From: Terfezia claveryi
Lineage: Eukaryota; Ascomycota; Pezizomycetes; Pezizales; Pezizaceae
NCBI GenBank assembly: GCA_015179025.1
Contig: WHUX01000148.1
Coordinates: 1 to 64,000 of the forward strand
DNA: 64,000 nt
Reading direction: 5' to 3'
Under the pieces are notes generated by a model, which worked only from the letters and a program-made list of their open reading frames with translations, was not told the DNA's origin and did no database searches. Numbering within the stretch: the first letter of the stretch is position 1; each line of letters starts with the position of its first letter. The position numbers and the translations under genes were made by a program. This document shows positions 12,665-16,402 of this stretch, piece after piece.

Positions 12665-15600
12665 CTAACTCCACAATTTTGACTTTTTTGTGCGTGCCCT
12701 TCTCTTCTTCACTGGAGGTGGCAGGATCTCAGGAATACCCTCTTTCCCAGTAGTTATCCCCTGTATATGCTCGATTACGCCTTCTGGGTCTTGCATCTCT
12801 GTCCCTCTTTCTCCCATTCGCACCCTAATCACTCTTGCGCCGGCCCCACCATCGCCAACCCTGACTATATCTTCAAGTGACTCGCTATGGGTGACCACAA
12901 GAACGTGTTTCACCTCCCCTCCCGCAGGTCTATCAGTGCCTTGTGTGGTGGATACTGCTGAGATGAGCTCGGCAGCTTGCATTTGCCCTTCCTTATCTAG
13001 TGCGTCAAAGACCTCGTCGAGCATAATGAAATCCGCCCTGAATCGCGATTTCTGGCGGATGAGTTGGAAAAGCGCGAATAGGACGGCGAGGTTATTTCGT
13101 TTGCGCTGACCTGATGAACGTTTACCAAATGATGATGGTGGATAGATGGAGAGGTCAGGCGTGAAGGAGATGGGAAGGCTGTAGGCGGCCTTGTAGCTGC
13201 CGTTGCCTGGCCCAATGGTCGTAGGGTTGGTGAGGATTTCCATGTTCAATTGTATTAGCGTGTTGAGCTCATTGATTGAGTTCGAGATGAGGTAGTGTCT
13301 TATGTTGGGAGCGGATGTAGTTGCCTGCTTTTTGTTGAAAGCAACCTCCCAGAATACGAGGATCCTCAGGGCCTTCTCTAGCTCAGTAATCCTGTTGGCA
13401 CTGGAATTAAGATCGTTACAGTATATGGCGAGTTGGCTCTTCATGTTCTTGAGTTGAGACGTGGCATGCTTGACCTCCGTTGTGAGTCTAGTGAGTGAAG
13501 AGGTCAATGCGGTTTTGCGTGACGACAATTCCTGTATCCGTTTTAACAGCCCTGCGTGAGTGGACATCACCCTTTGGAGGGTTGACACGTCTTGATCGGC
13601 TGATCGATGGGCTAGTCGTGCAACTTCATCCATCGTCTTCCCGGCGAGCAAGACCTCTATTTCCTGTTCAGCCGTGGCCCGTTGCATTTCCAACCTCTTC
13701 ATAGGCGTTTGGGTGGTCAGCAACATATTCCGTGTCTCTCTCTCGCGTTCAGCAAGGGTGTTGAGGTATCCAGCCGTGAGTTGCAACTCCTTCATGTCTA
13801 GTATGACAGCTGCGTGCCTTTCTTCATGTCCTTGCACCTCAGACTCCAAGGTAGCCAACTCGGCCGCTAGCTCGGCCGCTTTCTTCTCAAGAGCTTCCTT
13901 CTTTCGCTTCATCTGTTCAAGATGCTCCTCCACACGAGTGGGGCTGTCCAGTGACTGACGACATGTCGGGCAGACACCTTTTCTAATTGCAAGCTGATTT
14001 TTGTGTGTTTCCAGATGTTTCTCCTTGACCCGATCGGCAACGTTTCTGTACTCGAGGGACTTCATTTGCAGGGCTTTCTGCCCTCGGTCTAGATCCTTCT
14101 GTGTTGCTACCCACCTGACATGCAATGGCCTCAACTCCTCAATTTTCAATAGCATCTTCTGGCCCTCCTGCAGCTTATCTTCCCGCAAGCACAGCTGGTC
14201 TGTGATGATTCGTTTACTCTCTTGTACGCGCTGCAAGGTATCATACAGTTTATTCCATCTCAGAAGCTCACCTTGTTCCTCCTCGATTCTAACTCGATCT
14301 TCTTCAAACTTTGCGACCTCCTTTTCTAGTTCCCCAAGCCTCAGCTCGGCATCATCTCTCATCCTCTCCCTCGGCCCAACTGAGTCCTGTACCCAACGAT
14401 GCTCGGTCTCCAGTCTGTTGAGCTCTATGGCGATGGTCTCTGATTGCGACTTGAGCGTCAGATACTCTTTCTCCACCACTCTCTTCTCTTCCCTGACGGC
14501 CTTGAGATACCCCTCAAAGTTGCTAATTCCTAGCAGTTCCTCTAAAACCTCCCGTCTCTGCTTGGTATCCAGTGTTAGGAAGTTCCCTGCTCCTCCACCC
14601 TGATCGCCAAATATCACACTCTTTGTAAAGGTTGCAAAGTCACAACCGAGGATATCCCTTTCCAAAGCAGCCTGAGTTTTCCTCGTCTCGCCACGTTCGA
14701 AGTCGGGTACTTCCTGTCCATTCTTGTACAATCTCAGCCCAGGGCCAGATCCAGCGCCTTTGCTTGTAAATTTACGAAATCTCTCAATGCTGTACCCATT
14801 CTCAAAGTCAATCCTCACACAACAGTTCTTACCGACAACATCATTCACGAGATCAGCAACACCCATGTCACTTCGAAGAACTTCGCCAAACAGACACCAA
14901 ACGATTGCCTCGAGAATCGTGGACTTGCCGGAGCCATTTGGGCCCGTGAGAAACCAAGTACCAGGATTTAGCTTGAAAAATGGGAGAGAAAGGGTGCCTT
15001 GAATCGAGAAAAAGTTTTGTATGGTCAAGTTACGAAGAGTGCCTTGGAAGACAGAAAGAGAGGAACTTGTAGAGGTGGCTGATGTGACCCCATCTGTATA
15101 ATTCGCGTCTGCAATCTTCATGAGCCGTTCGGCAGTCGCAATGTAGTCTGCTTGCTGATCCTCGGGGATTATGTTACTATCTGTGGGAATTGTATCGAGA
15201 AACAAAGGAAGGGCCTCGATGAATGTAGCTGTGGTTGGTGCCCGGAATATTTCCTCTGGTAGTTGCTCTGGTTGCTGGTTCGCAGTTTCCTCTTTGTTGA
15301 CCTTCCCTTCTAGTTCTGTATCATTCTGATGACTTTTCGCATCAGAGAAAATTCCCCTTCCGATCTCGACTTTTCGCCGCACATCGCCAGCCCCTGTTTC
15401 GATAAGTTTTGCTCTCCACGTCTCGAACTCTGGTGCATCGACGGTTTTACACCTCAAGTTAATTCTTTTCCCAACAACATCAAAGGGCAGTTGCAACTTG
15501 TCATCTCCAGCGCTAGCCCGTAAATCCTGCAGTGATACCTCCCGAAATAAATCCCAATTAGGATTTTGGATGAACTCCATTGCTGGGGCCTCGTTTTGTG

Positions 15601-16402
15601 AAGTGATAGTTGGTTGTAAAAACAAAATACCTCTCTGATCATCTGCCTTGTCTCCAAAATGATGTTGCATGGGCGATCCAACGTACCAAACTTTCCCATC
15701 GACCACTGCTTGGTGATGGTGAAAGTGTCCAAGAAATGTACCACGGAAGTCAACCAAATGCCGTCCTTTGAGAACTCCAGTATGTGTTCGATATCGACTT
15801 TCCACCGGTACGGACGGTTGCTGAATTGCCCCTGACACTGCTAAATGCCCAAACAGTATACGTTGGTTCTTCTCTTCACCGGGTATCTCTCCAAGCCTAT
15901 CCACCATCAGGGTATGATTCTCGACCCATGGGACCATTAAACACTTCACCCCCTCGATCTCCACATCAGTAAAATCCTTGTATAACTTACAAGATCCCTT
16001 AAATCCCTCAGTATCAAACACGTCCAGGCTGGACACTCTCGAGCTATGTTTCAAATTCATATCATGATTCCCCAAGACGATATGCACCGGTGCAATCCTG
16101 CGTAACTCATCGAAGAACTTTGCCGTTGCAGAAAGCGCCTGCACATTGACATGCTCACGGGTATTGATGACATCTCCCAGGCAAAAGATTTGGGTAACCT
16201 GTGCATCACGAAAAACATCGGTGATCCATTGAGAGGTTTCAACTATGCGAGGAAGATCCTCTTGCTGGAAGTGGATGTCGCCGAAGACGCCCCACTTGGG
16301 ATGAGCCCGGGGTGCTATCGAGGAGGTATGCCTGCGTGAGGCTAGGAATGGCAGAAAAGAAGGCCGTGCTTGGGATAGGCACCGAAGCCTTGCTTGTAGC
16401 AT
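12665..16402 (-). CDS. Single-polypeptide SbcD/Mre11-SbcC/Rad50 fusion, predicted mitochondrial
   Basis: One uninterrupted frame of 1245 aa joins a DNA-repair nuclease to its partner ATPase. Residues 1-35 are rich in Arg, Ser, Ala and Leu with no acidic residue, like a mitochondrial presequence. Residues 36-265 form a calcineurin-like phosphoesterase with all metal motifs: GDIH (41-44), GDV (76-78), GNHD (111-114), GH (185-186), GHFHH (225-229). A capping/linker region follows to about 455. The SMC/Rad50-type ATPase then has Walker A GPNGSGKST (487-495), a Q-loop (about 601), a coiled coil of about 170-200 residues per arm around a CPTC zinc hook (811-814), signature SSGQRKR (1096-1102), Walker B FIMLDE (1125-1130), D-loop (1134-1139) and H-loop TH (1171-1172). 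The C-terminus is basic (VKKRRARTKKSK, 1231-1242). In bacteria and phage T4 these activities are two separate proteins (SbcD/SbcC, gp47/gp46) that process DNA ends. The intact motifs argue for a working enzyme; the mitochondrial role is inference. Confidence 0.9.
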   Translation of the reverse strand: MLQARLRCLSQARPSFLPFLASRRHTSSIAPRAHPKWGVFGDIHFQQEDLPRIVETSQWITDVFRDAQVTQIFCLGDVINTREHVNVQALSATAKFFDELRRIAPVHIVLGNHDMNLKHSSRVSSLDVFDTEGFKGSCKLYKDFTDVEIEGVKCLMVPWVENHTLMVDRLGEIPGEEKNQRILFGHLAVSGAIQQPSVPVESRYRTHTGVLKGRHLVDFRGTFLGHFHHHQAVVDGKVWYVGSPMQHHFGDKADDQRGILFLQPTITSQNEAPAMEFIQNPNWDLFREVSLQDLRASAGDDKLQLPFDVVGKRINLRCKTVDAPEFETWRAKLIETGAGDVRRKVEIGRGIFSDAKSHQNDTELEGKVNKEETANQQPEQLPEEIFRAPTTATFIEALPLFLDTIPTDSNIIPEDQQADYIATAERLMKIADANYTDGVTSATSTSSSLSVFQGTLRNLTIQNFFSIQGTLSLPFFKLNPGTWFLTGPNGSGKSTILEAIVWCLFGEVLRSDMGVADLVNDVVGKNCCVRIDFENGYSIERFRKFTSKGAGSGPGLRLYKNGQEVPDFERGETRKTQAALERDILGCDFATFTKSVIFGDQGGGAGNFLTLDTKQRREVLEELLGISNFEGYLKAVREEKRVVEKEYLTLKSQSETIAIELNRLETEHRWVQDSVGPRERMRDDAELRLGELEKEVAKFEEDRVRIEEEQGELLRWNKLYDTLQRVQESKRIITDQLCLREDKLQEGQKMLLKIEELRPLHVRWVATQKDLDRGQKALQMKSLEYRNVADRVKEKHLETHKNQLAIRKGVCPTCRQSLDSPTRVEEHLEQMKRKKEALEKKAAELAAELATLESEVQGHEERHAAVILDMKELQLTAGYLNTLAERERETRNMLLTTQTPMKRLEMQRATAEQEIEVLLAGKTMDEVARLAHRSADQDVSTLQRVMSTHAGLLKRIQELSSRKTALTSSLTRLTTEVKHATSQLKNMKSQLAIYCNDLNSSANRITELEKALRILVFWEVAFNKKQATTSAPNIRHYLISNSINELNTLIQLNMEILTNPTTIGPGNGSYKAAYSLPISFTPDLSIYPPSSFGKRSSGQRKRNNLAVLFALFQLIRQKSRFRADFIMLDEVFDALDKEGQMQAAELISAVSTTQGTDRPAGGEVKHVLVVTHSESLEDIVRVGDGGAGARVIRVRMGERGTEMQDPEGVIEHIQGITTGKEGIPEILPPPVKKRRARTKKSKLWS

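Follow-up and report, generated by a model that had tools for sequence, protein, structure and literature searches.

How does a filamentous ascomycete come to encode both halves of the Mre11-Rad50 DNA-end nuclease in one polypeptide? This question is raised by a gene on the minus strand at 12665..16402 of the window analyzed here, which comprises the first 64,000 nucleotides (positions 1-64000) of contig WHUX01000148.1 (C55 in our numbering) in the 72.6-Mb assembly of Terfezia claveryi (GCA_015179025.1; 794 contigs). The gene encodes a single-chain SbcD-SbcC (Mre11-Rad50) fusion, in which an SbcD/Mre11-type nuclease, a linker and an SbcC/Rad50-type ATPase follow each other in one chain, nuclease first. 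Our preferred reading, to which we assign a probability of roughly 0.55, is a phage-derived, nucleus-encoded one-chain DNA-end nuclease that probably resides in mitochondria and takes part in the processing of mitochondrial DNA (mtDNA) ends.

The reading frame begins with ATG and comprises 1245 codons plus a stop codon, without any internal stop; upstream of the ATG it extends for 44 codons to a stop and contains no further methionine. The gene is single-copy, as the only match to its sequence in the entire assembly is the gene itself. An earlier note on this DNA, made by a model from the letters alone, had claimed that one stop-free frame holds all five metal motifs of the nuclease and every ABC/Rad50 motif including a CPTC zinc hook, and both the frame and the alignments bear this out. 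The nuclease domain is of the calcineurin-like SbcD/gp47 type (residues 36-300; 15503..16297) and is recognized by Pfam (Metallophos, 39-136), by PHROGs (phrog_100, SbcD-like, E 1.1e-37 across residues 36-293), in alignments and by Foldseek. It is followed by a linker or capping region (residues 301-452; 15047..15502), which was modelled mostly with low confidence, and by the N-terminal ATPase lobe (residues 453-660; 14423..15046), which is supported by alignment and by Pfam matches to AAA_23 (459-657) and SMC_N, the AAA_23/SMC_N ATPase lying between 456 and 657. Matches to Rad50_zn_hook (793-841) and SbcC_Walker_B stayed below the Pfam cut-offs; in PHROGs, the ATPase half matches the SbcC-like phrog_77 with an E-value of 1e-73 across residues 455-1177. 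The Mre11 DNA-binding domain PF04152 is absent from the Pfam matches of the fusion at E 0.1, and in the genome it was found only on contig C794.

Aligned with the proteins of phages T4, Goe10, S-BM1, Mosig and RaK2, the fusion retains each of the invariant positions of both enzymes. On the nuclease side these are metal motif I (D42-I-H44; 16271..16279), motif II (G76-D77; 16172..16177), motif III (GNHD, 111-114; 16061..16072), the motif IV histidine (His186; 15845..15847) and motif V (GHFH, 225-228; 15719..15730), corresponding to the D-x-H, GD, GNHD, His and GH-x-H of the phage nucleases. On the ATPase side, the GK-S of Walker A (GPNGSGKST, 487-495; 14918..14944), both cysteines of the CPTC zinc hook between two helical, coiled-coil arms (811-814; 13961..13972), which is also seen in the structure model, the S-x-G of the ABC signature (SSGQRK, 1096-1101; 13100..13117), the DE of Walker B and the aspartate of the D-loop (LDEVFDALD, 1128-1136; 12995..13021) and the H-loop histidine (His1172; 12887..12889) are all invariant. 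From these conserved motifs we infer an ATP-dependent Mn nuclease activity. A structure model of residues 34-1185, based on 11 aligned fusions, is of low confidence overall (mean predicted local distance difference test score 63, predicted template modelling (TM) score 0.41), and its matches were used per domain only. For the nuclease part, Foldseek gives a match to the core of a bacterial Mre11 (3thn; TM-score 0.58 by target over 278 columns); the remainder of the model matches heads of Rad50, SbcC and SMC proteins.

The closest relative found in the scans made is itself a fused open reading frame (ORF), of 1164 amino acids, at 8976-12470 of locus L142, on the 220-kb contig of an uncultivated phage (IMGVR_UViG_3300049855_000348). 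It was brought in by a scan of IMG/VR for LDEVFD (56 stretches), and as this motif is taken from the query, the scan favours proteins that share it. The two proteins are alike over their whole length and in the same domain order (tblastn E 4e-88; 32% identity over residues 38-714 and 30% over residues 965-1174; 30-38% depending on the stretch), and they share GHFH, the CPTC hook, S[SG]GQRK and LDEVFDALD. Because the 1245-codon frame is intact and the likeness to the phage protein extends over the whole length in the same order, the fusion is far beyond chance; a two-gene or frameshift artefact was likewise rejected, given the single open frame and its co-linearity with the phage fusion. The phage chain differs in that it begins at the nuclease core, has a shorter linker between nuclease and ATPase, and possesses neither the N-terminal extension nor the basic C-terminal tail of the fungal chain. 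In blastp, the fungal protein scores 157 bits (nuclease) and 233 bits (ATPase) against the L142 protein, and at most 74 and 115 bits, respectively, against the other 34 rows of a 36-row comparison set; in a later set of 40 viral loci the top nuclease match reached 87 bits by tblastn (L305). Six of the ten scanned proteins of the L142 contig match PHROGs, namely the fusion, a UvsX-like recombinase, a DNA helicase (phrog_16) which we take to be of the UvsW type, a RuvC-like resolvase, a primase and a protein of unknown function, and on account of these matches we regard the contig as phage. Two more of the loci collected, L266 and L267, belong to the same large uncultivated phage.

Fused genes of this kind occur elsewhere among viruses. 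A profile search of the ORFs of 239 loci recovered ten distinct fused viral ORFs (counting L237 and L238 once, and L196 as L142), nine of which form a separate group (L201, L202, L210, L218, L231, L235, L236, L237, L239). We refer to these nine ORFs, which lie on IMG/VR contigs and measure 1043-1102 amino acids from stop to stop, as R555-like; the label is ours and is based on a motif, Mimivirus R555 being considered here by its published description. They share the fusion and its domain order with the fungal protein and differ from it in forming a separate clade, in the hook, for which the consensus over the fusions is C-G-G-x-F-P-T-C as compared with the fungal CPTC, and in motif V, which is GDIH in all eight sequences read, in place of the GHFH of the fungus and L142. 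The GDIH agrees with the aspartate that is reported to replace a motif V histidine in R555 (PMC3175470), a histidine that the fungal protein keeps. Of the named phage records, 2622 matched at E 1e-5, none of them with a single place covering 80% of the query, and in the best matches listed the similarity was split into two or three pieces that fall in separate genes. This is the arrangement of phage T4 gp47/gp46 and of SPO1-type phages, which resemble the fusion in their phage-type SbcD/SbcC, in the order of nuclease and ATPase and in their short coiled coil, but encode two separate proteins with 21-25% identity to it. Walker A and Walker B lie 636 residues apart in the fungal protein, as against 462 in T4, 704 in the L142 fusion, 807-836 in two archaea and 941 in E. 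coli. The first 16 viral fold matches are 866-1389 amino acids long (e.g. Listeria phage 1009; Tupanvirus, Yasminevirus and Harvfovirus 1343-1389), lengths that, judged from length alone, would suit fusions.

A second L142-like protein was not found in four further scans of viral contigs; the 40 new loci from one of these scans contained no fused ORF. Peptide-word scans with the fungal protein alone returned no relatives from viral contigs (2 stretches) or genome contigs (19 stretches), the LDEVFD scan of genome contigs gave no fused ORF among the matches listed, and of the 154 plasmid records matched, the 30 matches listed were all of the ATPase type.

Phylogenetic trees of the separate halves place the fungal protein next to L142. 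In trees of 36 rows the two are sisters with support values of 100/99 for the ATPase and 99/97 for the nuclease, and in trees of 46 rows with 100/99 in both halves. The smaller set used 25 of 44 loci with both halves (the 44 including E. coli and one L142 duplicate), thinned by hand of near-duplicates; the larger one adds 10 of the 40 further loci. Of the others, 19 did not show both halves at the thresholds applied, and 11 were left out for a cut ORF or for want of a crop motif. In both sets both halves group with L142 and apart from the canonical rows, a side represented by few rows, i.e. E. coli, two archaea that are both below the Rad50 family cut-off (as were all 21 genomes searched), and one row for the fungus' own MRN, pieced together from exons whose junctions were placed by eye. 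The deeper branches are poorly resolved in both trees. Approximately unbiased (AU) tests, for which the hypotheses were picked after the trees had been seen, reject a grouping of the fungal protein with E. coli (p 0.014 for the ATPase, 0.010 for the nuclease) and with the R555-like group without L142 (0.024 and 0.017). A single clade of all fusions is not rejected by the ATPase half (p 0.233) and narrowly rejected by the nuclease half (p 0.041), results that leave room for either one or two origins of the fusions.

The same genome encodes a separate MRE11 on contig C794 (top PDB match Mre11, E 6.9e-91) and a separate RAD50 on contig C445 (with a chain from the MRN structure 7zr1 of Chaetomium thermophilum as top PDB match, E 5.5e-59). 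These provide the same two activities from two genes, each in several exon-like pieces, and because of their presence the fusion is additional to nuclear MRN, as the earlier note had supposed. In blastp the nuclease half of the fusion does not match the fungus' own MRE11, and the ATPase half matches its own RAD50 with an E-value of only 0.30. The same note had also proposed that the ATPase resembles phage gp46 or bacterial SbcC more than nuclear Rad50, of which PHROGs, trees and blastp uphold the likeness to gp46, and had left it to trees to set both halves apart from nuclear MRN. For the nuclease this was achieved, as grouping with the own MRN row is rejected by the AU test (p 0.00014); for the ATPase half taken alone, grouping with the own RAD50 is not rejected (p 0.117, with a very long branch). 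A duplicated nuclear MRN was rejected on the grounds of the nuclease tree with its AU test and of blastp, a rejection against which the ATPase test stands. Both halves are best read as belonging to a phage-type lineage and not to nuclear MRN.

Mre11/Rad50 fusions as such are not new. The earlier note had held that the two activities reside in separate proteins in the systems known; this does not stand, and the notion that no such fusion is known was dropped, since fusions, including eukaryotic ones, were described in 2011 by Yoshida, Claverie and Ogata. According to that paper (PMC3175470), they occur in Mimivirus (R555), in Bacillus phage 0305phi8-36, in bacteria (among them Deferribacter and, on plasmids, Clostridium kluyveri) and, with a sporadic distribution among eukaryotes, in a moss, slime moulds, a diatom and green algae including Micromonas/prasinophytes. 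As in the T. claveryi protein, the Mre11-like part precedes the Rad50-like part, and in cellular organisms the fusion coexists with the canonical pair, with Deferribacter as the sole exception. R555 was cited as an Mre11/Rad50 fusion again in a later Mimivirus paper (PMC6466248). No fungal fusion is named in the main text of the 2011 paper (the strings 'fung' and 'ascomycet' are absent), where yeast appears only as a canonical example, and a paper on a fungal or mitochondrial fusion was not found in the literature searched, which did not extend to subscription papers and preprints. What is new here is a member of the family from a fungus, together with its sister in a phage and its presequence-like start.

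The published eukaryotic fusions and their sporadic distribution allow for a different history, in which the T. claveryi gene belongs to an old eukaryotic fusion lineage, inherited or passed among eukaryotes, and in which L142 copied it or shares an older fused ancestor with it. Our trees contain none of the published eukaryotic fusions, and the fungal protein may be nearer to those than to L142. In addition, L142 is one phage sequence and the only close relative, and for this reason a transfer may have run in either direction and may be old or recent. On the other hand, viruses hold many fusions, as indicated by the ten distinct fused ORFs and by the viral fold matches of fused length at the top of the search, and the authors of the 2011 study themselves favoured viruses as the source (PMC3175470). 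We therefore consider a eukaryotic lineage possible but rather unlikely.

Whether the protein acts in mitochondria or in the nucleus depends on its two ends, which are absent from the phage fusion. The N-terminal extension (residues 1-35; 16298..16402) contains six arginines and neither aspartate nor glutamate, the first acidic residue being at position 42. A rule of no acidic and at least five basic residues was met by only 2 of 109 internal, methionine-started 35-mers, taken from ORFs of at least 240 amino acids in four loci of the same genome, from a GH31 frame and from the interior of the fusion, controls among which some frames may be non-coding. With moderate confidence, its composition suggests that the extension is a mitochondrial presequence. 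The other end is a basic tail (KKRRARTKK, residues 1228-1245; 12668..12721), which might bind DNA or might direct the protein to the nucleus. In the latter case the same phage-type nuclease would be nuclear and would assist MRN or attack foreign or palindromic DNA. The absence of the tail from the phage protein and the weakly amphipathic N-terminus would fit this; the Arg-rich, acid-free extension, placed exactly upstream of the conserved start, and the MRE11 and RAD50 already encoded in the genome do not, and a nuclear role appears unlikely to us. The organelle-type enzyme proposed in the earlier note is plausible in view of the N-terminus, with the C-terminus, which is like a nuclear localization signal, pointing in the opposite direction.

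Several observations weigh against a phage-derived mitochondrial enzyme. The N-terminus has a low hydrophobic moment (0.26, compared with 0.47 for the Mgm101 encoded in the same genome), and KKRRARTKK resembles a nuclear localization signal, a label given by likeness to the motif and not by a prediction. The UvsX of the L142 phage has no match in this genome in a search that had no positive control. The Foldseek matches ranking highest by E-value are long coiled-coil proteins with low TM-scores, fungal nuclear Rad50 (7zr1) and Smc5/6 among them; the first two PDB matches are chains of this fungal Rad50, with long coiled coils and TM-scores of 0.2-0.3. To these are added the AU result for RAD50 and the single close phage relative, both mentioned above.

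A remnant of the SbcCD of the mitochondrial endosymbiont, fused after its move to the nucleus, would also account for a presequence-like N-terminus. Only 2 of 289 alphaproteobacterial genomes matched at E 1e-5 among the rows shown (at most two candidates scored per genome), both weakly and in the ATPase only, and an alphaproteobacterial origin was rejected on this count; moreover, phage relatives score far higher, and the AU tests reject the grouping with E. coli in both halves. Such an origin is very improbable. The codon usage of the fusion correlates with that of the fungus' own SMC3 (r 0.80), a RAD50 exon (0.73) and GH31 (0.58), and less with that of the L142 gene (0.41). Two fungal rhodopsin domains lie at 22636-24164 of the same 135,672-bp contig and, with the GH31 gene, indicate a fungal host that is probably one of the filamentous ascomycetes. 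As its codon usage is nearer to that of the fungus' own genes and fungal rhodopsin domains share the contig, the fusion is a resident gene. An assembly chimera or a bacterial or viral contamination, in favour of which nothing was seen, is hardly conceivable and was rejected in view of this codon usage, of the neighbouring rhodopsin and GH31 genes and of the co-linear likeness to the phage fusion over the whole length.

Several further features lie in the window. On the opposite strand, some 700 bp upstream of the fusion gene, there is a fragment of a Tc3-type transposase (17100-17465), which matches HTH_Tnp_Tc3_2 with E 6.8e-7 and narrowly misses the Pfam cut-off. An inverted pair of about 480 bp with 91% identity is located at 8313-8790 and 9635-10094, and a 17-bp tandem repeat of 32 copies at 2-558. 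A segment of about 7 kb is present in two copies (40071-47131 and 50489-57925), whose pieces are 91-96% identical. Both copies contain a long array of a 29-bp repeat, at 41330-43017 and 51728-53973, and internal matches also connect one array with the other. The GH31 glucosidase at 32459-35137 is read in two frames that adjoin each other, 32459-34348 and 34349-35137; an intron or a broken gene is the probable cause. A tRNA called by ARAGORN at 61195-61279 has an odd four-base anticodon and is probably spurious. A 5.8S rRNA had no match in the assembly (39 of 1772 candidates scored), and the ribosomal DNA may be unassembled.

In SbcCD and Mre11-Rad50, ATP-driven closing and opening of the heads controls whether DNA ends can reach the nuclease, and coiled coils and zinc hook link molecules. 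Motifs for each of these mechanistic steps are present in the fusion. By comparison with SbcCD and Mre11-Rad50 structures, two chains, each an SbcD/gp47-type metallonuclease tied by its linker to an SbcC/gp46-type ATPase with a hook-tipped coiled coil, would dimerize via their heads into a single nuclease-ATPase clamp, whose hooks could tether DNA ends. Horizontal transfer from a phage that already carried the fused form is the most likely source of the gene, to which the presequence-like N-terminus would have been added. We further infer that the protein is most likely imported into mitochondria, where it would process or tether broken or linear mtDNA ends. A gene for Mgm101 is present in the same genome, and the processed ends might be annealed by proteins of the Mgm101/Mhr1 type and enter recombination-dependent replication. 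This would parallel gp46/47, which serves recombination-dependent replication in T4 (PMC3175470). For yeast mtDNA, PMC7288456 describes that ends are resected (Din7) and passed to Mhr1 and Mgm101, whereupon rolling-circle replication starts.

Taken at its fullest, namely that a filamentous fungus recruited the fused SbcD-SbcC of a large phage into its mitochondria for the resection and tethering of mtDNA ends in recombination-dependent replication, this proposal is a tentative one. If true, it would place a T4-style recombination nuclease beside those components of mitochondrial replication that are already of phage origin. A mitochondrial location would also make the protein a candidate end-resection nuclease of filamentous-fungal mtDNA besides Din7. 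Because its phage sister, encoded together with UvsX-, helicase- and RuvC-like genes, is fused as well, the two halves may well have been joined before the gene reached the fungus. For the Mre11-Rad50 family, one chain with a complete set of motifs represents a convenient single-gene system in which the mechanics of the enzyme may be studied.

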